The notes under the pieces: generated by a model
Told to the model about the DNA's origin: nothing
What the model saw: only the letters and a program-made list of their open reading frames with translations
The model's database searches: none
Part shown: positions 1-36,013 of the stretch, in pieces
How positions within the stretch are numbered: position 1 is the first letter of the stretch
How the letters are laid out: each line of letters starts with the position of its first letter
Position numbers and translations under genes: made by a program
Source of the DNA: Haloquadratum walsbyi J07HQW2
Lineage (GTDB): Archaea; Halobacteriota; Halobacteria; Halobacteriales; Haloferacaceae
DNA length: 64,000 nucleotides
Reading direction: 5' to 3'
Assembly (NCBI RefSeq): GCF_000415985.1
Contig: NZ_KE356561.1
Location: forward strand, 2,002,657-2,066,656

Positions 1-738
1 GAACGACTCGTCAGATTGTTCCTCCGTGTCCTTGGAACAGAAGATCAACCACACCGGGCGTGTCCTCACGACGTGGTCGAAGCGATGCTCCACATTGCCC
101 AATCCACACAGAATTACGATTTCCTCACTGTCCAAGACATCTCATTCGGATTGTCGAATCTTCCCACAAAGCGTCTCTTGCCTGAACTCCCTCCAACAGC
201 GACGAAACTCCTCAAGACATTGCTCAACGCTGATGATCCGATGGGTCGGTCTGAGATTATTGATACCGCCGATATTTCCGCAAGTAGTTATGATCGTTAT
301 ATTAACGAACTCGCCGCTTGGGATAGTATCGAACCACGCGAAGTCAAGGGACGCCGCCGGTGGGAGGCACACTTAGAACCGTGGTGGACACCACAGAGTG
401 ATCGGGACGAACCCTTCTGTGACCCTGACCCAGACACGGGCATTCTTTATGCTGAATTCCCACGTGATGTTGCCAGTGCAGTCATGTGCCATCTGATGAC
501 TCACTACGACTTACCCAATCTCAAAACAGCGTATATCGAGGGGATTCGACCAGGAGATGATATTAAGTCTCTCTTCGATGATCATGACAGGCTCAGACGA
601 TGGTGGTCGTTCCTCTGGGGTGCATTTGCTGATTCGGATGAGCTTAAGACAGGTCCTGATGATGCCGCAGGCTCGGATTCAACGGTGGTTTGTCTTGGTC
701 ACTCTCCAGAATCCGTGACAAGATATTCGGCTATCTAA
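1..738 (+). CDS. Hypothetical protein, 3' part of a gene cut by the window edge
   Basis: The reading frame is open from base 1 (first codons Glu-Arg-Leu-Val-Arg), so the TTG at 16 is probably not the true start and the gene begins upstream of the window. About 245 residues are visible. The stretch around residues 60-120 (repeated Leu, then SEIIDTADIS and a basic RRRW segment) looks like a winged-helix DNA-binding fold, followed by a Trp- and Asp-rich C-terminal part. I do not recognise the family. Haloarchaeal plasmid and replication-associated proteins often have this composition, but that is only an impression. The end at 738 is clear; function is unknown. Confidence 0.6.
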   Translation, partial: ERLVRLFLRVLGTEDQPHRACPHDVVEAMLHIAQSTQNYDFLTVQDISFGLSNLPTKRLLPELPPTATKLLKTLLNADDPMGRSEIIDTADISASSYDRYINELAAWDSIEPREVKGRRRWEAHLEPWWTPQSDRDEPFCDPDPDTGILYAEFPRDVASAVMCHLMTHYDLPNLKTAYIEGIRPGDDIKSLFDDHDRLRRWWSFLWGAFADSDELKTGPDDAAGSDSTVVCLGHSPESVTRYSAI

Positions 739-880
739 TCGATTCCCGATTTCAGCCACTGTGGGCACAACTATTAGCCATTGTATCAGAGAATAGCGGA
801 GTCAGAACTTGAGCGCTCGTAGTGTTCCTCGCATGGCTCCACGTAGTGGCTTTCAAGACATCCAGCCAGCCACCAACTCG

Positions 881-1117
881 TCAGGGTCGTGGCGGAATCC
901 GAATCTCCTCGCCTACCTCATACAGATAGCCTTTGAGGAGCAACTGCTTGAGCCGGTTGTTGACTTCGACACGTCCGATACCCTGCTTCATGAGATATAC
1001 GGTTGCCGTTTCACGCGTGAGCGTGTCGTCATCTGTGTTTGCGTCGATATACGCCTCAAGATGATCAAGGATGTCTTGTTCACCCGCTTCGATTGGTCGT
1101 CTCTGATCTTTCATCAT
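881..1117 (-). CDS. Small conserved-looking haloarchaeal protein, possible winged-helix
   Basis: This encodes 78 residues, acidic overall (LDHLEAYIDANTDDD), with a helical pattern ending in a beta-hairpin-like tail (KGYLYEVGEEIRIPPRP) that resembles the wing of a small winged-helix domain. Two ATGs lie in tandem at 1117 and 1114, and either may be used. Amino-acid composition is typical of haloarchaeal proteins, unlike the antisense frame over the same bases, which is rich in Ser, Cys and Arg. It stands alone, convergent with the truncated gene at 1-738. The function is unknown; a small regulator is plausible. Confidence 0.65.
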   Translation of the reverse strand: MMKDQRRPIEAGEQDILDHLEAYIDANTDDDTLTRETATVYLMKQGIGRVEVNNRLKQLLLKGYLYEVGEEIRIPPRP

Positions 1118-1234
1118 TCATATCCTACGTGTGCCACATATGAGACAGTTTGGGTCATATGTCGTTCCGGGTCAGTAGGACGCCTTCGAAAGAACACTCC
1201 AGTTCTACGTGCAGTGTAGTCCTAACGGATCTAA

Positions 1235-1534
1235 CGAACCAGTGACATACTGGACGCGACGTCGAGATACATCCTCAAAACAAACATATCAGCTAACGGG
1301 ATATCAAATAGTGCTACCGACATCGACAACGCCCGAGACGGTGATGCCGACGAATTCGGGGAACCGAATATTATCGAGGGGATCGTGCTGTTCCTCGACA
1401 ATCTTCACTCGTCGCGAGGTGTGTCTGTTTTCGGTCAGCAGCCTGTGAGCCGGCAACAGTACATGTTAATCAGCACTCATCAGAGTGTACCCTTTCGATA
1501 TGATTTAGTGTACGAACCAAGACAAATCAAATAA
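1235..1534 (+). pseudogene. Start-less open frame, likely gene remnant
   Basis: After the TAA at 1232-1234 a frame runs open for 99 codons to TAA at 1532-1534. No ATG or GTG lies near its beginning; the first Met codon is close to the end. The translation is protein-like and acidic in the middle (ARDGDADEFGEPNIIEG, then IVLFLDNLHSS), quite unlike a random frame. It may be the 3' part of a gene that lost its 5' end. I do not recognise the family. It stops three bases before the start of the next gene at 1538. Alternatively it is a chance open frame. Confidence 0.35.
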
Positions 1535-1537
1535 TAA

Positions 1538-2071
1538 ATGCTGCATACGGCGAAGGGACGCGTTTTAGCCGTTACTCTCCTACTTACTTCGCTCGCTGTG
1601 CTGTGCCCGCTCTATGCACAACAGCCGGTGAATCCCGAATTAGGAGTATATGCAGATGATAATGAATTTACAGAGACACCAGAGCGATATATTGGTGATA
1701 CCGTCGTCACGGGAGGGATCGTGCAACAGGTCTCTCCACTCATTATTGAACTCGAAACAACACAGGGACAACGCGAAATAACGATTACTGACAGCGCGTT
1801 TCGTCCTGAGGTTGGTGACAAGGTTCGTGTATTCGGGACACTCACTGCTGCCGGAAGGGTTCAGAGCCAAAGTGGATTCGCTGTGCCGCAGACTGGACGA
1901 TGGTATGCATGGGGTATTTCCTTCCTTGCCGGGTTGTGGGTACTCACTCGACTTATTCGACACTGGAGGATCGATTGGGCACGGATTCGGTTTCAACGTC
2001 GAGAGAGACCACTCTCACTGAGAGACATCTATCAGATCCCGACATCACTCGATGGTGACCGAGATGCCTGA
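1538..2071 (+). CDS. Secreted or membrane-anchored OB-fold-like protein
   Basis: The product has 177 residues. Residues 1-27 form a hydrophobic signal sequence or membrane anchor (VLAVTLLLTSLAVL). A beta-rich domain of about 80 residues follows (YIGDTVVTGGIVQQV ... GDKVRVFGTL), a pattern typical of OB-fold domains. A second membrane segment lies around residues 123-140 (WGISFLAGLWVLTRLI), followed by an Arg-rich cytoplasmic tail. The likely topology places the beta domain outside the cell. The stop overlaps the start of the next membrane-protein gene by 20 bases, so the two are probably one transcription unit. Specific function is unknown. Confidence 0.75.
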   Translation: MLHTAKGRVLAVTLLLTSLAVLCPLYAQQPVNPELGVYADDNEFTETPERYIGDTVVTGGIVQQVSPLIIELETTQGQREITITDSAFRPEVGDKVRVFGTLTAAGRVQSQSGFAVPQTGRWYAWGISFLAGLWVLTRLIRHWRIDWARIRFQRRERPLSLRDIYQIPTSLDGDRDA

Positions 2072-2570
2072 TCTGTTAGCACATGTGTTCATTGCGTACA
2101 GCGTCTGCCGAGTTCTCTCATGGCGAGTATCATGGCTCACGAGTCAATACATCACGCTTGGAATGGTCGGTGCGTTCATTCCAGATCTTGTGAAAATCAA
2201 ATTAGTGATTCCAAGTTGGCGAGTTGAGCAACTACTCGGGATTCCATTCGATTGGGGGAGTTTCGCTACGGGTGGTGGCGTGCTACTGAGTATGCTGATT
2301 GGTATTGTGTTGTTATCGACGACAGAGCGCCGCAGAGGAGGAGCACTTCTCGCTCTTGGGGTGCTGACTCACCTTCTGACGGATAGTTTATTACTCACAC
2401 CTACAGGTCGAACGACACAGTTGCTGTGGCCACTCACGCAATACACAACACCAGCTCCAGGGTTGTATCTAAGCACACAGCCAGAGCCGACAATCGTGAC
2501 TGGAGGCTTTGCTATAATCGTGTGGGGCATCCACCGATATCGAATTGGGCACTCTGAGACAGAATCCTGA
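2052..2570 (+). CDS. YdjM-like membrane-bound metal-dependent hydrolase family protein
   Basis: The 172-residue product is mostly hydrophobic, with four or so membrane segments. It begins MPDLLAHVFIAY and has GMVGAFIPDLVK and LGVLTHLLTDSLL, matching the pattern of the YdjM/LexA-regulated family of inner-membrane putative hydrolases (PF04307), where the conserved His and Asp residues (HVF, PDL, HLLTD) are thought to bind metal. ATG at 2052 overlaps the upstream gene by 20 bases; ATG at 2064 (MPDLL) would leave an 8-base overlap and may be the real start. No member of this family has a firmly established substrate that I know of. Confidence 0.75.
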   Translation: MVTEMPDLLAHVFIAYSVCRVLSWRVSWLTSQYITLGMVGAFIPDLVKIKLVIPSWRVEQLLGIPFDWGSFATGGGVLLSMLIGIVLLSTTERRRGGALLALGVLTHLLTDSLLLTPTGRTTQLLWPLTQYTTPAPGLYLSTQPEPTIVTGGFAIIVWGIHRYRIGHSETES

Positions 2571-2767
2571 ACAGATACTCAGACCTCAGCCAATCAGCGA
2601 CGTGTAATAAACACACTCATCGGCTGCATCGACCCTACACATCTTTAGTAAGCGTATGAGTAGCCGCTCACAGTGAGGAGTACTCAAACGATCTTATCGA
2701 TAGTATACGATAACCCATAATCAAAATAACAAAAAGCATCAAGCCGCCACTATGGTATAATAGCGAT

Positions 2768-3922
2768 ATGGATGATGTGTCGACATATATTGAGCGACTT
2801 GAGGAGGTGACAGAGACGAAACAGGGGGCTGCTGAGACAGAGGCGGAGTATATCAATCGACTTGGGCAGGAGACATCGCTGTCTGAATCAGAGATAACTA
2901 CGACATCAGAAGCGATAACGAAATCAGCCTACTCGCCAGGAGATCTTTCAGCAGATGAAGAGGAGATACTCGACTCGTTTTTCGAGGCAGTGCAGACAAC
3001 ATACGATGGAGACTCGACACAACAGGAAACAACCACAGATACAACGGTAGACGACCAGACCGATGAGGATTCACCTAAATCCGATAGAGAAACCACTGAC
3101 GATACGTTGTCAATCGACTATCCTGAGGCGGCTAAGTCAGACCCTCCAGAGATATCTAATGATGACAGTATTTTCAATAATTTTAGACTACTTGCTATAA
3201 CAACGATAATATTGTTAGTATTCACTGCTGTGATCGTTGCTGGTGCTATTGGAGCCATAGAAATTCCAGGTGTCACTGCTGCGGTTACAGGCAGTATAGG
3301 AGTTGATGACACGAGTGGAACCGACCCACAAGGATCTGCAGGAGTATCTACCACCACAACGTCTGAATCATCACCAACACAAACCACAACTGCTACGCCA
3401 ACCGCAACATCGACGCCCGAACCGACACCAATACCAACTCCAACGCCGACAGCCACCCCGACTCCAACGCCGACACCGACGCCCACCCCAACGCCAACAC
3501 CTGAGCCAGCTGCTGGAACAGTCGGGGAATGGGTTGAAACAACACATAATGGAACGAGTGTAAGGGTGCAGGTTGTCGAATACCGTGTTACAGAGACAAT
3601 TCAAAAACAGGGAGGCGGAACACGTGATGCTCCAGATGATGAACGATTCGTCGTTGCAGAGGTATGGATCAGTGCGAACCCTGGGAATGCGATTACCGTC
3701 GGTCGAGATCAATGGACATTCGTCGATGTAACAGACACAAACCATACTGTAAATAACGGTGCCACAAATGATGTTGTAGAGAGCTTCCCCCGGGAGACAG
3801 TCATCAAAGGAGATGCTGAGCGAGGGCAGGTCGTATGGACAACACCATATTGGCGTGATGTGACGGTCCGAGTGGAACCGTATGGTGGACAATCCGGTCG
3901 AACAGTTCGGATACTCACATGA
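2768..3922 (+). CDS. Single-pass membrane protein with Thr-Pro stalk and DUF4352-like outer domain
   Basis: The product has 384 residues. Residues 1-135 are acidic and Ser/Thr-rich and probably cytoplasmic. One membrane helix lies near 139-163 (LLAITTIILLVFTAVIVAG). Residues about 195-248 are a low-complexity Thr-Pro stalk, and residues 250-384 form a beta-rich domain (VRVQVVEYRVTETI, then FVVAEVWISANPGNAI) resembling the extracellular DUF4352 fold. The TP repeat suggests a rigid, possibly O-glycosylated spacer lifting the C-terminal domain from the membrane. The gene stands alone with a TATA-like stretch upstream (around 2755-2762). The ligand or role is unknown. Confidence 0.75.
   Translation: MDDVSTYIERLEEVTETKQGAAETEAEYINRLGQETSLSESEITTTSEAITKSAYSPGDLSADEEEILDSFFEAVQTTYDGDSTQQETTTDTTVDDQTDEDSPKSDRETTDDTLSIDYPEAAKSDPPEISNDDSIFNNFRLLAITTIILLVFTAVIVAGAIGAIEIPGVTAAVTGSIGVDDTSGTDPQGSAGVSTTTTSESSPTQTTTATPTATSTPEPTPIPTPTPTATPTPTPTPTPTPTPTPEPAAGTVGEWVETTHNGTSVRVQVVEYRVTETIQKQGGGTRDAPDDERFVVAEVWISANPGNAITVGRDQWTFVDVTDTNHTVNNGATNDVVESFPRETVIKGDAERGQVVWTTPYWRDVTVRVEPYGGQSGRTVRILT
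3395..3504 (+). repeat. In-frame hexanucleotide-type Thr-Pro coding repeat
   Basis: The DNA is made of near-identical units of the type ACNCCN that encode alternating Thr-Pro, giving a low-complexity stalk inside the membrane protein at 2768-3922. Purity is highest around 3455-3500. Such tracts expand and contract by slippage in multiples of six bases without breaking the frame. Confidence 0.85.
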
Positions 3923-4083
3923 TGAGACAGGCCCATTGAAGATGATACGAAGTTGATTGAAGGGTTTATGTTGAAGATAATAATTGCTCACCGAGCGACC
4001 CATTATACTCAATCGTTCTCAACAAGTTTTCTCGTATGTATGGTCTTCAACGAATCTCCACTCAAACGTTAATTAAAAATTAT

Positions 4084-6604
4084 TTAAATTATGGCGCGAC
4101 TCGGCTCAAAAACATATCCAAGAATAATAAGAATGATTGAGGCGACGGCTGTCGTGAGGATCACACCTACTGACCCAACTATCCCTATCTGTGCCAGCCC
4201 CACTGCAGATATAAACGTAATCAATACACTGATAAGATACGCAGTGAGCAACCGCAGCGTCAGATACCGTAGGTGACTTCGCGTTGTACTATCGAAAGCA
4301 AGTTCGATATCTGATGGCTGTGTTAGTTCCTGGTTACCGTTGAGTGGACCTTGTTGGTCATCATCACCTCTATATCGTGATATTCTATTGGATACTTTCA
4401 AAATTGCCTGTCGAATGTAAAGAGAGACACGGGTGGTAAAGAATGTGACCACCGGGAGGTATAGCAGCCATGGGATGTTCCCACGACGCGTGCTGATTGA
4501 CGGCTGGCCGGAAACTGAGTCCAATTGATAATACCGCCGTTGAGCGCGATAAAACATATCGACTGGAATGAGCGAAAGCAGGAACGGCCATAAAATGCCA
4601 GAAATGATGATTTGAAGTGGATATAACAATCCTGATTCCGACTGTCTCACCGCACTAGGCGTCTCGCCGGATTGTGCTGCTTGCTGCCCCCTCTCCATCG
4701 GAGTACCGGCAGGGGTAGGGGTACCAAGCGGACTCTCGTTCCGCTCAGGCAAAATGCCTATACTTTCAGCGACTCCCAAAATTCCGCCACCACCGCCGCC
4801 TCCCCCTCCCGAGACAGCCGTGCCATCATCGCGTGGGGTATCTACCTGAGGTGGATCGTTATCACCACCTCCACCTCCATTCCCATTTCCATCTCCAGGT
4901 GTTGATGTCGACGTCTCTGTTGACACTGGAGATACGACTGGGGTTGATGTATTTGTTTGAGGTGTTTCATCATCGCCACCATCACCATCGCCACCATCTC
5001 TAGGTGTCGGTGTCGGCGTATCCGTCGGCGTATCGGTTGGTGTTGTTCGAGCCGGGCAGCCTCTGCCTAGCGAATCACTATCGCGGTAATTTGGCGTCCC
5101 GTCGCCATCAATATCAGCAGTACCTTCGATACTGTCAGGACAGCCATCGCCGTCGGAGTCAGTATCACGAAAGTCAGGTATATTATCACCATCGGTATCA
5201 GGAGGACCGTCAGATAATAGTAAGCTTGGTGTCCCGCCGATCGTTTCCCCTTCGACACTATCGTCGATACCGTCATCATCTGAGTCAGCATCAAGTGCAT
5301 CAATCACCCCATCGTCGTCTGTGTCGATTGCAACTCCACCATTTGTTTCGGTTCCATCGCTGATCCCATCGCCGTCTGTATCCCTATCGCGAGGGTCCAA
5401 TCCAAGCCCTAGGTCCGGGTCGGGATTACGTTCAACGATATTTCGAAGTCCATCACCATCGAGATCCCCACTCGGTCCTTCCGAGTCGGTCGGATCTCGG
5501 TAATTCGGCGTTCCATCGGCATCAATATCAGTTACTCCCTCATTCCTGTCCAATTTCCCGAGAATCACATCGCCATCACCGTCGATATCTATCTGTGTTT
5601 GATTTACATCTCCGTCGTTATCGCTGTCGATATTTGCATCACCGTCGCTATCGCGGTCTCGATAGTTTGGGATCCCATCAGAGTCGGTATCGACTGTGCC
5701 TTCAACCACGTCAGGAATTCCATCATCGTCACTATCCGTATCCTGAAGATCTGGAGTCCCGTCTGCATCAGTATCGCGTAACGCAGAAACAGCAGATACT
5801 GAAGCGGGAACCCCACCGGTAGCATTCGCTTCAATTGTATCGTTTATTTCATCACCATCACTATCGGTATCAAGAAAATTCGGCAATCCGTCGGCATCAG
5901 TATCGACACTGGTCTCTAGTGTGTCATTGACCCGATCACCGTCTGCATCACTATCGCGATAGTTCGGAATGCCATCGTTGTCCCTGTCGCCACTGTCCTC
6001 AATCGTATCATTGATTCCATCACCGTCGCTGTCGGTATCGCGGAAATCAGGCGTGCCGTCAGCATCAGTGTCAGGCGGTTCGTCCAATCCGACGCTTGGT
6101 CGCCCTGCGTTTGTGCTTCCTTCCTCTCTATCAGAAATGCCATCACCGTCTGAATCACGATCAAGTGCATCGATAGTCCCATCGTCGTCTGTGTCAATTC
6201 GCTGTCCGCCATTTGTTTCAGTCCCATCTTCAATCCCGTCATTATCGGTGTCGACATTATTTGGATCAGTGCCTAACTGCTGCTCACGAGCATTATCTAT
6301 CCCATCACCGTCTGAGTCGGTTGCACTCTGTGATACCGGATTAATACTATCGACGTTTTTCTGTGAACTGTCGCGACATTGACCACTCTCAGTTTGATTG
6401 TCGCATATATCATAGACATCTGAAGAAGCAGAATCTGAAAAGTCGGGAATAGGTGATATAGATGCAGATGCGAGATATAGATGTAGGTGTGTCCGATAAG
6501 TCGAGTATTCCAGCTACTGGGGTAACGATACCAGTCGAGAGACTCAGTATACAGATGCTCAACACAATCGCGGTTTTGAGGTTAATTGGCAGTATATTGA
6601 TCAT
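4084..6604 (-). pseudogene. Asp-rich thrombospondin type 3-like repeat surface protein, frameshifted after the signal peptide
   Basis: The main frame (6513 down to 4084) encodes a long array of calcium-binding type repeats (DTDADGTPDF, DSDGDGINDTIE, DADSDDDGIDDSVE), then a Thr-Pro and Gly-rich linker, then a C-terminal membrane region with about four hydrophobic segments (FLLSLIPVDMFY, WLLYLPVVTFFTT, VGVILTTAVASIILII). This frame has no ATG at its head; the TTG at 6087 lies inside the repeat array. In another frame, an ATG at 6604 opens a perfect signal peptide (AIVLSICILSLSTGIV) that runs out around 6410. Joining the two frames near 6465-6495 restores one continuous protein of about 840 residues; the total length is a multiple of three plus one base. 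So the gene carries a one-base insertion (or two-base deletion), or a sequencing error. Confidence 0.8.
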
Positions 6605-28072: not shown

Positions 28073-28867
28073 TGCCAGTATGTATCCATCAGATATTAGT
28101 GTCATGTCGATAATCGGATTTTTCTCTATTAGCCACAACCGACTACGGTATATTCTCGCTCGTCGAACTGGTGATACTATTGAAGAGCTTCTATGAGGTT
28201 TGGTCGAGATTATCAAATGCTGATTGACCATATCGGTAAACCTCACTGCCACTCTTCACTCATCGTCGCTATTTGTGACCAGCCCATGATCCGCTCTCAC
28301 CTCATCGTTTGCGTGTTCCCCTGTCGAATATTGACTTTATTCGCAAGCATCGTCTTTAGCTCCGCTCAGTTGAAATCAGGATCCTAATCATATGTTTAAG
28401 TATGTCACGGATGGAATCGCAACGACTTTGTGTCCCTCTTTTCTCCGGACTTCGTCGGCATCGTCAAGAGAAGTCTCCACCATCCAGATATTGATTGTTG
28501 TTTTCTCGGGAGGTTTGGCTTCCGATATGTGATTGCATTGAATTTGTGTGCTAATACTTCACATATAATCACCACAGTATCAGTGAATCGAGTGGATATC
28601 TCAGTCGAGTCGGTCATACGAATTGTGCCTCACCTACCCCGCAAAAGTCGGTCGTCTCAAGCGTCGCCCTGTTGGTTTGAGATCATGAGGAACCAGTCGG
28701 TTGCCGTCCCAATCCAAAGATAGTCGATACCGCGCATCTCAAGACCGTTCGTTGCGGTTCGAAGCGATTCGTGTTGGTGAGAGCAGCTATCACCACATCG
28801 GAATGTGTATTCTCATGGTTGGCATTTCGTATAGCGATATATGGTTTATTTTCCTCACATCTTGGAA
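28073..28867. other. Region without intact gene, possible decayed sequence
   Basis: No intact gene is seen. On the minus strand near 28650-28740 a short open stretch reads MRGIDYLWIGTATDWFLMIS and then stops; with neighbouring frames it may be the end of a lost gene. Nothing could be named. GC content rises towards the transposon on the right. Confidence 0.4.
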
Positions 28868-29080
28868 GTTGAGGCTACACCGGGTTTAGCGGGGCTGTGA
28901 AGCGTGGTTTTGGCCGATTCAGTGGGCGGAAACTGACCCAGAGTGCCCTCCACACGGTCAATCTTGCTGAGATTCCAACCACCCACGCGAATTTCGGTGA
29001 CTTCCGACAGCGTAGCCACTCATACACCGCACTACCACGGGGTGAGTCCCGTTACTATCCGACTCCTGTCTCCTTCTTCA
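28868..29080 (+). repeat. Left-end repeat, copy 1 (213 bases)
   Basis: This stretch aligns with 32328-32540 without any gap at roughly 78 percent identity by eye. It covers the terminal inverted repeat, about 185 noncoding bases and the last eight codons of the transposase. A conserved hairpin (CGGG, six bases, CCCG) at about 29037-29052 follows the transposase stop and may end its transcript. Mismatches fall about equally on all three positions of the frame that is open in both copies, so I regard it as noncoding. Confidence 0.8.
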
Positions 29081-30731
29081 GCAGCGTCAGCGTATTATCG
29101 GCCGTCACAATCGGCGAATGCTCGTACTCACCAGTCAACTTGACCTGCACAAGCAGGTCCACCGCTCGCCAAATCGAGTACAGCAGACACGCGAACGCGA
29201 AGTAAAAGAACCGCAGTCCGAAATTCTTCGAGGTCGTCGCAGCCATGAACCGCTTGATCGACCGATAGCCACTCTCGATCTCCCACCGGTACCCGTACTC
29301 AGTGAGAAATCCGCTCCCCCGATTCGACATGAACACTGAGTATTGCCGATGATCGTTATGCTCTGAATTCTCTTTCCGTCGATAGATCAGCGTCGTCTCG
29401 TGCCACTTGTTCTTGCCGAGATGGAGCTTCCTGTCGGTTTCATACCGGTCCTGATCTCGTCGGAGCAACCGCTTTGCCTGAGCTTTCTCGCTGGTCTGCA
29501 TCCGCTTGGGCACGACGTAGGAAAGGCCGCGCTGGCTGAGCATCTCGAGGACGTGCTGACTGTCGAACTCTCGATCCATCAGCACGTTATCGACGTGAAC
29601 CATCTCCTCAGCCGACTCCAGGAGGTCCTCAACGATTTCTAAGCGGGACTCACCCTTCTGAACTGGTCTCGCGTCCAGCACGATTGGGACGGCATTCCCT
29701 ACTAATTGGACGGTGGCCCACTGATAGGCGTACTCGTCGGTCTTCTCCTTCGTCCCGATGATCTCGTTCTCGTGGCCGGTCCTGTCGCCGGTGAAAGGAT
29801 CGGCTTCAGTGATGTCGATTGCAACAATCCCAGCCCGAAAGAACTGCTCCGTCTCCGCGACCTGGTTCAGAAGCCTATTAACGGCCTGCCGGTACATCTC
29901 ACGAATCTCTAATACCGAGAGATCACGAATATGCTCGCGGTGAGCGTGGCCCAAAGGTGTCCGCTCTCGAGTTGACTCGTAGGTAAAGCTGCGAGCGCCT
30001 TCGTTGGCAGCCAGATTTTCGCGAAGTCCGAGATACGTCTGTAAGTCCCAGTAGGCGTTCTCGTGGATCTCACAGCCCTTCCCTCGGTCCAGCGAGAATG
30101 CCGGGAAGACAACGCGGCTGACATGCTCCGTAATCGGTGCTGCTTCGTCGAGGACAGCTTGATCGTCTGGGTCCGATTCGAACTCTTCGTCACCGTGAGA
30201 CGGACGGTGTCGCTTTGGTTTGCGCGGAACATTGACACCCGCACTCTGGGCTTTGATGAGGATGGTTCGCGCAGCTGTCTCGATTGTACTGCGAAACTCG
30301 GCAGTGAACCGCTTGTGGCAACTGCGCCACAGCGTCGATTGATTCGGCACTGTCTCCAGACCCAATTGCTCGCAGAGTTCTGGACGCCGATCGAGATACT
30401 CGACGAGTGCTGTCTCATGGGCCCAGCCGTGGCACTCTTTCAGGAAGAACACGCGAAAGAGGATTTCCATCCCGTATCGAGTTGGGCCCGCGTAGCGGTC
30501 GTGCGCGTCGAAGTCGAAATACGTCAACGGGAGTGAGTGGACGAACTTTTCGACCGACTCGTGGCGGTCGTGCCTGAACCAAGTCTGCGAGACGATCCGA
30601 ACATCTGACTCCAGCCCGTCGAGCGAGCTTTGCCCGTACAGCGGCGTCGAATCGTACACTGGCCAATCAGCGTGTGGTCGGTGGGCAATCCGTCGAAAGA
30701 CACTCCGGCGAGACTCACGAGTTGGTGCCAC
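29055..30731 (-). CDS. IS4-type DDE transposase
   Basis: The 558-residue protein has the DDE catalytic plan: Asp in AGIVAIDITEADPFTGD, Asp in DNVLMDREFDSQ, and Glu inside YGYRWEIESGYRSIK, which fits the Y-(2)-R-(3)-E-(6)-K signature of IS4-superfamily transposases exactly. No stop or frameshift is seen, so it may be active. It is encoded on the minus strand with its 3' end inside the conserved left end of the element. Its start lies only 25 bases from the stop of the pRiA4b-like gene, leaving no room for a separate right end there. Confidence 0.9.
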   Translation of the reverse strand: MAPTRESRRSVFRRIAHRPHADWPVYDSTPLYGQSSLDGLESDVRIVSQTWFRHDRHESVEKFVHSLPLTYFDFDAHDRYAGPTRYGMEILFRVFFLKECHGWAHETALVEYLDRRPELCEQLGLETVPNQSTLWRSCHKRFTAEFRSTIETAARTILIKAQSAGVNVPRKPKRHRPSHGDEEFESDPDDQAVLDEAAPITEHVSRVVFPAFSLDRGKGCEIHENAYWDLQTYLGLRENLAANEGARSFTYESTRERTPLGHAHREHIRDLSVLEIREMYRQAVNRLLNQVAETEQFFRAGIVAIDITEADPFTGDRTGHENEIIGTKEKTDEYAYQWATVQLVGNAVPIVLDARPVQKGESRLEIVEDLLESAEEMVHVDNVLMDREFDSQHVLEMLSQRGLSYVVPKRMQTSEKAQAKRLLRRDQDRYETDRKLHLGKNKWHETTLIYRRKENSEHNDHRQYSVFMSNRGSGFLTEYGYRWEIESGYRSIKRFMAATTSKNFGLRFFYFAFACLLYSIWRAVDLLVQVKLTGEYEHSPIVTADNTLTLLKKETGVG

Positions 30732-30755
30732 TACGAGACGCTGAACACGACTCGC

Positions 30756-31229
30756 TCAAAAACGCCGCTCTCTTGATGAGCCATACTGATCGATCGATTC
30801 TCCCTCGGTATTCACAACTGCTGGTTCCGTATCGCTTGGTTCGTCGGCGAGGACTTCCTTCAGGATAGCGTAGAAGCGCCACTCGTCACCGTAGTCGTAG
30901 AGGTAACAGATGCGGTCGTACTGTTCGAGGTCCAACTGTCTCGCCATCTCACCAATCGTCACCTCACCCGCATTCTCAAGACGTTCGGTGCGAAAAACCG
31001 GATCACCGCCACTCGATTGCTCGTATTCCTGTGGGCACTGATACTTGACTTCACTATCCCAGTACTCCTCGTCGGTCCCCATGAACCAGAGATGGGTCTG
31101 GTCGAGACCGACTGCAGGATTGATCGCTGACTGGAATTCAGCAATCGTTCTGTCAGCACCGACGACGATGTCCCGCCACAGCGATGTCGGATCGGGAGCG
31201 AATTTGACCCGGAAGCGATACGCGGTCAT
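30756..31229 (-). CDS. pRiA4b ORF-3-like protein
   Basis: The 157-residue protein begins MTAYRFRVKFAPDPTSLWRDIVV and has the family pattern of plasmid pRiA4b ORF-3-like proteins (PF07929): a beta-grasp-like core, HLWFMGTDEEYW, TIGEMARQLDLEQ and the conserved YDYGDEWRFYAIL. Proteins of this family are common on mobile DNA and have no settled function. It lies between the transposase and the toxin-antitoxin pair on the same strand and is part of the GC-rich segment. Confidence 0.85.
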   Translation of the reverse strand: MTAYRFRVKFAPDPTSLWRDIVVGADRTIAEFQSAINPAVGLDQTHLWFMGTDEEYWDSEVKYQCPQEYEQSSGGDPVFRTERLENAGEVTIGEMARQLDLEQYDRICYLYDYGDEWRFYAILKEVLADEPSDTEPAVVNTEGESIDQYGSSRERRF

Positions 31230-31313
31230 CCTTGCCTCTCCATTCCCGTGCGAAAAAGCCTGAAATCATCGATTCTCAATACCTGTGATGGATGGGTCCA
31301 CACAGTGGATCAA

Positions 31314-31825
31314 TCATCGATACGCTGCGATATCTCGATAGGGCACGTAGTAGCCAATCTCATCGATCCACGTCGAGAGCCATCCGTCAGCGGTCTGCTC
31401 AGTAATCTTCCCAGCATTGATCGCGGCGAGGAGCACGCCGACCGACCCGACAACGGTCACGCCCTGTTCTTTCGCAAATGATCGGGCATCGCCATCGTCG
31501 GTCAGCAATCGGCCGTCGTGTGCGTCTGCGAGGGCGAACGCCTGTGCTTCACCCGGCCCGGATCGAGATGATTACTGACAACAGCCTCTCTGTTTGCGAC
31601 TGTGCCCGAAATGGTCGCGACTGGAATCCCGTCGTCGAGTGTATCGAGTGCTGTCTGGAGATACGAATGATCAGCAACGCCGTGTTCGAGTTCCTCGCGA
31701 ACAACCGGAACCGTACAGATCCCAGAGAGTCCTGCAACCACCCACAACTGGTCGATGTACGCAAAATTCGAGAGGACAGTCGTGTTCAGGACACTCGGAT
31801 TCGCCGGAATATCATCGCCTGTCAT
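31314..31825 (-). pseudogene. PIN-domain (DUF3368-like) toxin, broken by a 5-base duplication
   Basis: The first part (31825 down) starts MTGDDIPANPSVLNTTVLSNFAYI with the PIN-domain Asp/Asn-Thr-Val-Leu-Ser pattern and VVREELEHGV; the frame then runs into RVKHRRSPSQTHTTADC and stops at 31502. In the next frame the protein goes on as GEAQAFALADAHDGRLLTDD with ARSFAKEQG, GKITEQTADGW and so on to 31314. The cause is a tandem duplication of CCGGG (plus strand about 31551-31560). Removing five bases gives a single 168-residue PIN toxin of normal length. The broken protein lacks the C-terminal catalytic Asp residues, so the toxin should be dead. Confidence 0.85.
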
Positions 31826-32190
31826 TTCGCAGGCGATTCCTCAGTCTCCGAGTCCTCATCCTCAAATTCGAGTCCGCTCGCTGCCTCTACTTCGTAGGCT
31901 GCGTCGTCTTCGTCAACGAGTCCGAGGCGGGGTTCGACGCCGTGCTCACGGAGGAGATCACGCATCGTCCAGCGATCGACATCGGCAAGCCGCGCAGCAT
32001 CACCGAGTGTGATTCGTTCGCGTTCGTAGAGCGCAACCGCAGCCGCAATGCGCTCATTCTCGTGGTCTTCGAAGTATTCGCGGACGAACTCGCGCAACGC
32101 ATCGCTCTTGCCTCCGAACACGCCAGCCTCGACAGCACCCTCGATGAGTAGATCGAGGTCATCCGGATAGGAGCCAGTGATTCGAGCCAT
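31822..32190 (-). CDS. UPF0175-family antitoxin
   Basis: The 122-residue protein has an N-terminal ribbon-like part (DDLDLLIEGAVEAGVFGGKSDALREFVREYF) and the UPF0175 helix-turn-helix region (AAVALYERERITLGDAARLADVDRWTMRDLLREHGVE). The C-terminal tail is acidic. The family typically pairs with DUF3368 PIN-domain toxins, and here it overlaps such a gene by four bases. The antitoxin is intact while the toxin is broken, a typical end state of toxin-antitoxin decay. It is the first gene inside the right end of transposon-like element 1. Confidence 0.85.
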   Translation of the reverse strand: MARITGSYPDDLDLLIEGAVEAGVFGGKSDALREFVREYFEDHENERIAAAVALYERERITLGDAARLADVDRWTMRDLLREHGVEPRLGLVDEDDAAYEVEAASGLEFEDEDSETEESPAK

Positions 32191-32244
32191 TTGTCTATCC
32201 GAGTCTACGTTTTCATACTATGTATGAACTGCGCCAGAGTGGCG

Positions 32245-32270
32245 TATGGATCGAGAAGAGTAGTCTCAAC
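32245..32270 (+). repeat. Right-end repeat, copy 1
   Basis: These 26 bases, ending GTAGTCTCAAC, match 33396-33421 at 21 of 26 positions. The last 11 bases are the inverted repeat of the element's left end. They lie upstream of the UPF0175 gene and might also carry its promoter. Confidence 0.6.
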
Positions 32271-32327
32271 TACTGAAGTTTTGTTCTGATAAACCGTATG
32301 ATGCTATATCAAATGGGTATACTGGGA

Positions 32328-32540
32328 GTTGAGGCTACAGAGGGTATCGTGGAGCTGTGATGCGCTGTTTCGACCGATTCAATGAACGGAAATTGATTCA
32401 GATTGCTCTTCAAACAGTCAATCTTGTTGAACCACCAAGCATACACGCGAATGTCGGTAACTTCCGGCAGCGTAGCCACTCGGACACCACGGTACTACGG
32501 GTTGAATCCCGTTACTATCCGATTTCCATCTCCTTCTTCA
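32328..32540 (+). repeat. Left-end repeat, copy 2 (213 bases)
   Basis: It aligns without gaps to 28868-29080. The subterminal hairpin is kept with sequence changes (ACGGG, six bases, CCCGT). The similarity stops exactly at 32540, just inside the transposase coding end. Confidence 0.8.
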
Positions 32541-32576
32541 CTAGAATTCTGTCCAAGTGAAATACCGAGTATGCTG

Positions 32577-32928
32577 CTAACACAGTTCTTCGACGAGAGC
32601 AGCGACCGCCTCGTCGGTGAGGTCGCTGTCAAGACGACCCTGCCAGAAGTCGATGTCTATGTCTTCGTGATCAAGTGGACGCCCCACGGGACGACCCGAC
32701 TCTCACTAGGAGTTCCATCATAAGGCCAACTCTTCCCGGGGATGTTGATCAGACTGTCCATCTAAGATTTCGACGTCAACGTCAGCATGATATACTGATC
32801 GTGGTGAAACGGACAGTCTTCATGATTCGAGAGAATAAGCCAGGTTGAGTGTCTTCCTCGCATTTGAATGGATCATCACCGTGGACGACGTCACAACGCT
32901 CAAAGACTGGTTTCTCTCCGTCGATCAC
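32577..32928 (-). pseudogene. PemK/MazF-like toxin remnant
   Basis: Reading the minus strand with several frame corrections gives EKPVFERCDVVHGDDPFK, then LILSNHEDCPFHHDQYIMLT with LTSKS, a stop codon, MDSLINIP, WPYDGTPSESRVVPWGVH, and finally DFWQGRLDSDLTDEAVAAL with a stop at 32577-32579. From memory this order matches haloarchaeal PemK/MazF-like growth-inhibitor proteins (GDVV..DPFK, PWLILSN, SRVVPWGV, QGRL). There is at least one in-frame stop and two frameshifts, so it is not functional. It overlaps the preceding winged-helix gene remnant at the stop/start, as toxin-antitoxin pairs do. Confidence 0.7.
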
Positions 32929-33286
32929 TATTCGTCCTCGATCTTGGGTGTGGTTCCTGTGGTGTGTGTGATCACGTCAAGAATCCCTGTCCTCCGTACT
33001 CAGTTGATCGTTGAACAGCGCCGTTGCCTGTTCACCTGCTGTATCCGTCGAGTCGCCGGGCGTCGTCAGTCACCGCCCGATACGTCGCCCTGTGTTCGAG
33101 ACTACAGTCATTTAGCCGTGAGAGAGCGGTGCTGACTTGCCCCTTCATTGACCTCAGCCATGAGGAGATTTCGCGAAGCTTGAACGCCCGATCCTCGTTG
33201 GCGGCGAGGAACCCGAGGGCCTGGTCTGGGGGAGAAAGATATTCGATCTCGTCCTCGCTCGTGTTATCGAAGGTATCTCAATCCAT
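32928..33286 (-). pseudogene. Winged-helix (MarR-like) antitoxin or regulator remnant
   Basis: An ATG at 33286 is followed after two codons by a stop, then an open part IEYLSPPDQALGFLAANEDR with AFKLREISSWL, VSTALSRLND and HRATYRAVTDDARRLDGYS, then a frameshift, ATALFNDQLSTEDRD, another frameshift, and an end KIEDE with stop at 32928-32930. This is the plan of haloarchaeal winged-helix proteins encoded directly upstream of PemK/MazF-like toxins. One nonsense codon and two frameshifts make it a pseudogene. Confidence 0.65.
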
Positions 33287-33395
33287 GAACATTATTCACT
33301 TTGGATACGTGATCCGCTGGAAAGAGCATTAGGAGTGAAAGCTTTGAACCCGAGAAAAGAGAAATCATATCGACCACGAAGCGGTTCGAGGGTCA

Positions 33396-33421
33396 TATGC
33401 ATCAAGAAGGTCAGTCTCAAC
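33396..33421 (+). repeat. Right-end repeat, copy 2
   Basis: These 26 bases ending CAGTCTCAAC match 32245-32270 at 21 of 26 positions, marking the right end of element 2. Confidence 0.55.
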
Positions 33422-33895
33422 CACCGGGTATATATGAAATTCATCTGGATTTACCATTAATTGGAGTTTCACTAGATAGAGATATCACAAGGAGTCAAGC
33501 GTCGAGCAAGAATAGTGAAGTCCCTCGGGGACGAGCCCCGACTCCGAGGCTGCACTGCCCCAGCAAGGGAATTTAATTCCTCCCGACGTCCCCCCCCTCC
33601 ATGAGGAGTTGGCTGGAAGTCACACCCGAACACACGATGTGTCTGTGGGAGCCGGTCACTGTCACTCCGCCATGACCCGGTGAAACTCCCGTCCCCGTCG
33701 CAGCCACCAGTAGCAGATAATGAGAGAAGACACACTTCCAAACTGTCGCAGCCACCAGTAGATGAAGTTCGGAGTGCGATAGCGGAGGAGCATCGTTACA
33801 GCTTCAATTGTTCATATAATGGATTCTTTTGAATTCACGTAGAGTAAAATATCAGTCCGTGATTTCTGTTATCAGTGTCCTGCTATGAGTTAGGT
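33422..33895. other. Gene-free region with a hairpin and a short direct repeat
   Basis: No gene is seen. A GC-rich hairpin-like piece at about 33522-33549 (CCTCGGGG, ACGAG, CCCCGA, then CTCCGAGG) resembles the structured right ends of IS200/IS605-type elements in haloarchaea. A 17-base direct repeat GTCGCAGCCACCAGTAG occurs twice, at about 33699 and 33747. There is also a poly-C run near 33591. This looks like a scar of an older insertion. Confidence 0.45.
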
Positions 33896-34682: not shown

Positions 34683-36013
34683 ATGGCGAAACAGGTCGTC
34701 AAACGCACTATTACTGGTTACATCCAGAACCACTCGCAAGTGCAGGATGAGCTTGACTCGCTTGGATTCGCCGCCAGTAAACTCTGGAATGTCGCCCGCT
34801 GGACAAGCGGACGAGTCTGGAACGAAACAGGCCACATCCCCGAAGACAGCGAACTGAAATCGTACCTCAAGTCTCACGAACGCTATGATGACCTACACTC
34901 GCAGTCAAGTCAGCGAGTTCTCAAAGAGCTCTCAAGCGTTCAACAGCTGGTACGGGAAACGCCAAAATGGGGACACGAAAGCGAATCCACCAGCATACCA
35001 TACCGCAAACACGACGACGAGCATCCACGCTCAACACTTACTTTCAAAGGTGCTGGCTTCAAGTTCGATACGAACAACGGACGAGTTCGACTCTCCAAAG
35101 GTGAGAACCTGAAAGAGTACTGGACAGACTTCGCTCTCTGCGACATCCAAACACGGTCTGATGTTGACCTTTCTGCGATTGAGAGCGTCCAACAGAACAG
35201 ATTCGTGCTGTCTGGAACAAGCAACGAGATCAAGATGAGTGGGAACTCCACATCGTCTGCAATATTGAAATTACTGTGTCAGAGAAACACGGAGAAAACC
35301 CTTGGTATTGACCTTGGAATCTGTCACTTCGCTGCCCTCGCCTTTGAAGACAAAGAGTCCGAACTATACCCGTTGAACTGTCTCAAACGGGACAATTACT
35401 ATTTCAGCAAGCATATCGCTCGCTGTGATGATTCCACGTCCCAAGAGACAGTTCGATTAAATGTCAAGAAGTCGAATCGTCGGACGCACTATTTCCACAC
35501 GCTCTCGAAACACATCATCCAACAATGTGTTAACGAGAACGTTGGTGCGATTGCAATCGGTGACCTCAGTGGCATCCGTGAGGATGAAGATGGGGAGACG
35601 AAGAACTGGGGCTGGGGCAAACACGGGAACGGGAACGGGAACGGGAACGGGAACTTGGACTTGCACTTGCACTCGTGGGCGTTTGACCGCTTCACAGACA
35701 TGGTTGAATACAAAGCTGAAGAAGCTGGAATTGATGTGATGTTGAACGCGTGTCTGAAAAGAATACGTCAAAGTCGTGTTCCTCGTGTGGATGTAAGAGT
35801 GATACAAACCGAGTTGAGCGTGGATTGTACGTGTGTGACGAGTGTGATTTGGTTGCGAATGCTGACGTGAACGGTGCTGAGAACATTAGAAAACAAGTAA
35901 CTTCGAGTCCTCAGCGTGAGAATAGAAGTAACGGCTGGTTGGCACAGCCATCGACCTACCTGTTTGACAAAGGAACTGGCTCGTTCGAGCCTCAAGAAAG
36001 GTTAGTGTCGTAG
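34683..36013 (+). pseudogene. IS1341-type TnpB, frameshifted
   Basis: The gene can be followed from MAKQVVKRTITGYIQNHSQ to the C-terminus, but needs at least three frame changes. Around 35225-35295 the proper frame reads DEWELHIVCNIEITVSEKHGE; before and after, the frame beginning at 34683 is correct (TLGIDLGICHFAALAF). Near 35740 the frame shifts again into TSKSCSSCGCKSDTNRVERG and VCDECDLVANADVNGAENI, the zinc ribbon and last RuvC Asp, ending at 36013. RuvC Asp of GIDLGI and NADVNG are present; the middle acidic motif reads AIAIGDLSG. A GGGAAC tandem repeat and doubled Leu-His codons have expanded one loop. It should be inactive. Confidence 0.88.
35626..35655 (+). repeat. GGGAAC tandem repeat inside tnpB
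   Basis: Five consecutive GGGAAC units encode alternating Gly-Asn, where related TnpB proteins have a single Gly-Asn before LDLH. A doubled TTGCAC lies just after it. Both are in-frame 6-base expansions. Confidence 0.85.

Follow-up and report, generated by a model that had tools for sequence, protein, structure and literature searches.

A decayed, transposase-free toxin-antitoxin element in Haloquadratum walsbyi very probably arose by internal deletion from a haloarchaeal transposon with a DDE transposase

Two mobile elements lie close together in the window, the 64,000-nucleotide stretch of Haloquadratum walsbyi J07HQW2 DNA that was analysed (C1:2002657-2066656 of a single-contig 3.59-Mb genome; 47.8% G+C). 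Element 1 is a complete transposon. Element 2, judged by its ends, its cargo and its relatives, is very probably a non-autonomous, decayed element that derives by internal deletion from a family of haloarchaeal transposons with a DDE transposase. The features of both are listed in Table 1.

Table 1. Features of element 1, element 2 and the element 2 insertion site (positions in the window)
Feature	Position	Strand	Basis
Element 1, complete 3413-bp transposon, both ends	28863..32275	- (strand of its genes)	L090 match; right end
Element 1 left end, TGGAAGTTGAGGCTACACC..., non-coding as far as the transposase stop	28863..29054		End-pattern matches
Element 1 transposase, 558 aa, open frame	29055..30731	-	DUF772 and DDE_Tnp_1; IS4-like YREK motif
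Element 1 cargo: PRiA4_ORF3-like protein	30756..31229	-	98% identity with L090 copy
Element 1 cargo: toxin-like protein, frameshifted near 31550	31317..31825	-	Intact 168 aa in L090
Element 1 cargo: UPF0175 protein, likely antitoxin	31822..32190	-	100% identity with L090
Element 1 right end AGTCTCAACTACTG	32262..32275		Exact 14-mer, 4 genome places only, all at ends of element 1's family
Target-site motif ATAAACCGTATGATGCTATA used by element 2	32289..32308	+	9 genome matches, 6 beside ends of element 1/2 family
Putative 8-bp target duplication, left copy GGGTATAC	32315..32322		Flank comparison
Element 2, transposase-less toxin-antitoxin relic, ~1.1 kb	32323..33425	- (strand of its genes)	Both ends, cargo
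Element 2 left end and 26 bp of transposase 3' end	32323..32540		79% to 28863-29080
PemK/MazF-like toxin remnant, three frames, in-frame stops	32577..32949	-	tblastn with intact L081 toxin
MarR-like winged-helix antitoxin remnant; codon 4 is a stop, frameshift after	32945..33292	-	Comparison with L081
Element 2 right end	33398..33425		Right-end consensus match at 33398-33422
Putative target duplication, right copy GGGTATAT	33426..33433		Flank comparison

Element 1 matches an element of Haloplanus ruber (L090) end to end, over positions 1-3413, at 95.1% DNA identity. A preliminary description of this DNA had assumed a shorter element 1; an end near 30790 is ruled out by the match to L090, which is unbroken up to 32275, where the right end lies. 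The position of this right end places 1.5 kb of cargo inside the element. Beside the transposase, element 1 is likely to carry a second toxin-antitoxin pair, predicted from the toxin-like and UPF0175 genes. The toxin-like gene, unbroken in L090, has one frameshift in element 1; its product is 168 aa in relatives and matches, via the L169 homologue, the PADLOC candidate PDC-S70. The G+C content of element 1 is 56.4%, against 44–50% in its flanks, and this suggests recent transfer. Matching 8-bp flanks are absent from element 1, which lies between TCACATCT and AAGTTTTG. At the same chromosomal place in a Haloquadratum-like genome (L277) there is a more distant right end with a UPF0175 gene (80.5%). 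On one reading, an incoming element 1 may have recombined with an older resident element. Matches to the 14-mer right end at 1–2 mismatches in the same genome are no more numerous than in the control and are noise, with the exception of element 2.

Element 2 begins with an ungapped 218-bp repeat of the left part of element 1 (32323-32540 against 28863-29080; 78.9% identity, E ~7e-49 within the window). The transposase stop of element 1 is at 29055-29057, therefore the shared repeat takes in 26 bp of the coding sequence before it stops. The preliminary description had likewise put the end of homology at 32540, in the stop region of the transposase, and that of the PemK-like toxin about 35 bases further on; the stop of the toxin remnant, at 32577-32579 on the minus strand, is 37 bp beyond 32540. 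At the junction, 43 bp have no clear alignment. Both ends are present, with 5 mismatches to the family consensus in the left and 4 in the right, which bears out the view of element 2 as a transposase-free unit between conserved ends of the same family. The right end closes the unit much as had been described, although the first base is 32323 rather than 32328 and the last is at about 33425.

The genes between these ends are a PemK-type toxin-antitoxin pair, as had been proposed, but both are pseudogenes with frameshifts and stops. The intact toxin of L081 matches PemK_toxin PF02452 with 25.3 bits against a cut-off of 23.1, while the match of the intact L081 antitoxin to MarR_2 is below threshold. 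With toxin and antitoxin both frameshifted, element 2 is a relic, and from its reading frames it is predicted to be dead as a toxin-antitoxin system. Among 48 copies of the pair, the antitoxin is intact in 46 and both genes are intact in 34, fractions that are skewed towards intact because the sample was picked by similarity. Both broken antitoxins belong to this genome. The antitoxin is unbroken in several copies with a broken toxin; only in the two copies of this genome are both genes broken (n = 48).

The flanks indicate that element 2 is a discrete, separate insertion. Sequences 32315-32322 and 33426-33433 agree at 7 of 8 bases with a 1-nt slip, which is equalled by 1.2–1.5% of random flank pairs. 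The homology of L277 to the window ends exactly at 32314, the base preceding the duplication; the target motif is present there, with other DNA after it. Together, the target motif, the near-duplicate flanks and the point at which the L277 homology stops support an insertion event of element 2's own, probably at its own target site. The imperfection of the duplication, with one base different and a one-base shift, counts against the explanation preferred here.

The orthologous locus in the Haloquadratum-like genome contains much mobile-element debris. In the window, a repeat of about 230 bp (~33515-33772) is present more than 10 times in this genome and many times in G099, a genome of the same genus, and an IS605-type OrfB (TnpB-like) gene adjoins the locus at 34683-35870. 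Also found are a pair of 147-nt direct repeats of 71% identity (5224-5370 and 6094-6240) and, within repetitive sequence (3441-5045), a pair of 43-nt inverted repeats.

Comparison with relatives indicates that the transposase of element 2 was deleted and not replaced, making it an apparent internal-deletion derivative. In Halobellus sp. Atlit-31R (L081) and Haloarcula argentinensis (L121), the left end is followed by the transposase, other genes, the PemK-like toxin, the MarR-like antitoxin and finally the right end. The same pair is against the right end in the transposase-bearing L220, L225 and L228. The start of the antitoxin is 121–157 bp from the right end in 41 of the 48 copies. The pair is thus the normal right-end cargo of transposase-bearing relatives, and loss of the transposase accounts for element 2 with no exchange. 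The preliminary description had instead proposed that the pair replaced the transposase, for example through recombination between conserved ends, generating a new non-autonomous element. Such a replacement is favoured by how abruptly the transposon end gives way to the toxin gene, but it is unneeded when the same pair has the same place in elements still possessing a transposase, and the junctions vary among derivatives. It is largely refuted by the five elements named above and is very improbable.

Other derivatives also point to deletion. In Halalkalirubrum salinum (L106), the left end is represented by about 56 bp, after which the sequence matches the toxin-antitoxin-right-end segment of L081 at 92% identity; this is an independent deletion. 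The number of C-terminal transposase codons kept is 93 in L214 and 128 in L236. The junctions of element 2, L106, L214 and L236 all differ, which suggests repeated deletion events. Only for L106 is there a known parent that closely resembles the deleted form. The identity of about 76% between element 2 and its nearest transposase-bearing parent over the toxin-antitoxin part, together with the 43 bp of unclear alignment at its junction, counts against the deletion reading. One branch of that reading is decay entirely in situ, in which a complete element landed, a local deletion removed the transposase and the transposase-free form never moved. The chances of this are about even. No second example of the 32540 junction turned up in the same genome or among 40 related toxin-antitoxin loci, the element 2 copy is heavily decayed, and repeat-mediated deletions within elements have been described for Haloquadratum (PMC3119063); against it, sister forms that lack a transposase share one junction across many loci, which indicates that such forms can move. 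It could also be that a truncated left end happens to abut an unrelated chromosomal toxin-antitoxin relic, since each part is decayed and mobile-element debris abounds at the orthologous locus. This is highly implausible given that a matching right end closes the unit, that the distance of the pair from the right end is so constant, that the flank is near-duplicate beside a target motif, and that there are relatives with intact ends.

Transposase-free sister forms have the distribution that element 2 lacks. A short form of 0.9 kb with the left end TGGAAGTTGAGACTTCGYTCAGAAGAAGG, no transposase and the same gene pair has one junction at 9 places in 7 genomes, with a shortened relative in L235. 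Its copies are 85–95% identical over about 915 bp, and two of its loci have perfect 8-bp duplications (TCTACCAG/TCTACCAG and GCGATTCG/GCGATTCG). The preliminary description had suggested that one junction at different loci would prove movement of the transposase-free form. The 32540 junction, seen once among the loci compared, gives no such proof for the exact form of element 2, whereas a fixed junction at about 10 loci in the sister form supports trans-mobilisation within the family. From these comparisons, the sister forms probably can move to new sites in trans, and a relative of the element 1 transposase may be responsible. The proposal that element 2 is non-autonomous, with a transposase supplied in trans by element 1, is therefore upheld in part: there is no transposase in element 2 and the frame in element 1 is open, but trans movement is indicated for the sister form only. 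Another transposase-free element in this genome (L018; C1:3104165-3105810) has a 9-bp flank match, GATAGGAAG; its cargo is a copy of the element 1 cargo at 89% identity and its junction is different.

The transposon family is present in many haloarchaea. The canonical layout of 60 annotated units is a left end, the transposase, 0.2–9.7 kb of cargo and a right end, with the transposase gene beginning, 3' end first, about 165–190 bp inside the left end. A close transposase relative is found in 103 of the 170 genomes of the taxonomic family, and the left-end 23-mer (up to 2 mismatches) in 77 of 170, with none in the reversed control. At loose settings, 144 left and 106 right end patterns were found in 101 loci, compared with 7 and 1 in the reversed sequence. 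Flank identity at 7 or 8 of 8 bases is seen for 16 of 36 isolated units, against 1.5% of random pairs.

Insertion sites show a sequence preference. The target motif ATAAAYCRTATRNCGCTATA has nine copies in its own genome, six beside ends of the element 1/2 family. The 20-bp insertion-site motif is at 32289-32308 and 28830-28849 in the window and at C1:1087311, 3102918, 3104131 and 3514538; three further copies of the motif are at C1:10678, 1078861 and 3548430. A CGCTATA-type motif lies no more than 40 nt away from 40 of 77 outer left ends, against 0 of 77 control stretches. A second recurrent target sequence, GAAGGCACGCATCAAATCTATCCTCCGAGGTTG, is present at many left flanks (L104, L109, L116 and L148 for example).

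Head-to-tail arrays with 8-bp spacers are found across L081-L176 (L082, L089 and L138 for example). The spacer is about 8 bp in 33 of 34 distinct right-end-to-left-end junctions (12–14 nt between pattern borders), the one exception, at 52 nt, being in this window. The spacer of several arrays is identical to the outer flank, as though a newcomer had inserted exactly at the duplication of a resident copy. That all arrays arise via one shared 8-bp site is only partly true, with flanks of at least 7 of 8 in 12 of 31 units in tandem settings. Since the flanks of the remaining tandem units differ, insertion of circles or dimers, recombination or decay must also act. A relic array (L015; C1:425528-427545) starts with the same MarR/PemK pair, a right end and an 8-bp spacer, continues with a left end with a transposase fragment, an intact MazF-like toxin gene and an upstream small gene, and finishes with a right end, an 8-bp spacer and a left-end fragment. 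It is conserved in part in the Haloquadratum-like genome (L280).

Toxin-antitoxin genes are not the sole cargo, which is very diverse (L082, L089, L091, L095, L131, L167, L172 and others) and includes ribonucleotide reductase subunits with NrdR, Fic, nickel transport with NikR, arsenic genes, DabA, ThiC, zinc uptake and a small multidrug transporter. A cargo tally by NCBIfam is dominated by ABC-transporter models and is of little use. The balance tips slightly towards the view that haloarchaea harbour an extensive family of target-selective cargo transposons that is apparently undescribed. In these, newcomers would preferentially insert precisely at the 8-bp repeat next to a resident right end, building head-to-tail arrays with changing cargo (toxin-antitoxin pairs, ribonucleotide reductase, Fic, metal transport, carbon uptake), and one branch would have the toxin-antitoxin pair tied permanently to the right end within the mobile unit, the pair also spreading alone as a 0.9-kb transposase-free element. 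No published description of the family was found in the open-access literature searched, which is weak evidence for novelty.

The element 1 transposase is best called a putative IS4-superfamily enzyme with no assigned family. It has the Y(2)R(3)E(6)K motif of the IS4 family, read directly as YGYRWEIESGYRSIK, and is a weak relative of ISH3, its best NCBIfam match (1.4e-29), at 103.2 bits, well below the cut-off of 225. The ISH3 family, which is IS4-related and archaeal, resembles the present family in this match and in its haloarchaeal occurrence, but has direct repeats of about 5 bp, while the IS4 family, which shares the YREK motif, has repeats of about 10 bp, against 8 bp here (PMC2266710).

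Among known systems, the Tn3-family transposons also carry type II toxin-antitoxin passenger pairs that differ between members (PMC7157771). They are bacterial, have resolvases and a different transposase, and are not relatives of the element 1/2 family, in which no resolvase was seen. Tn3 elements generate 5-bp duplications, whereas the present family has an archaeal IS4-like DDE transposase, 8-bp duplications and a pair against the right end. Reliance on the transposase of an autonomous element, with terminal repeats and duplication length in common with it, is a feature of MITEs, including the Tn3-derived TIMEs (PMC4133298) and the MITEs of Haloquadratum, which are described as at most about 520 bp long and largely non-coding (PMC3119063). 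The transposase-free forms described here, at about 0.9–1.1 kb and encoding a toxin-antitoxin pair, are unlike the latter. As in non-autonomous elements generally, element 2 lacks a transposase and shares its ends with complete copies; occurrence at several loci is seen for the sister short form and not for the 32540 junction. Transporter IS and mobile insertion cassettes are IS-like elements with passenger genes, which also have transposase-free versions. Both properties are shared with the present family, in which, by contrast, cargo varies by member and reaches nearly 10 kb and elements pile head to tail. The term for them occurs in PMC2266710.

A mechanism can be proposed from these comparisons. 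The DDE transposase would bind the short inverted ends and insert the element beside the target motif, duplicating 8 bp. The PemK/MazF-like toxin and MarR-like antitoxin are the cargo closest to the right end in one branch. Internal deletions would spare the ends and the pair, loss of the transposase and any inner cargo bringing the left end up against the pair; the element 2 deletion would begin 26 bp inside the transposase gene. The transposase of a complete relative could then move the transposase-free forms in trans. The pair may benefit the element as an addiction module, by penalising loss of the DNA that carries it, which would favour a form without movement of its own.

As far as was found, toxin-antitoxin pairs as fixed parts of transposons have been documented mainly in bacterial Tn3 elements. 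The same association is seen here in an archaeal transposon family unrelated to Tn3, with natural transposase-free versions that have continued to spread. This makes it testable whether a toxin-antitoxin pair aids the persistence of a transposon once its transposase is lost. The target motif and the 8-bp-spaced arrays are a ready system for gene build-up in haloarchaeal plasmids and islands.
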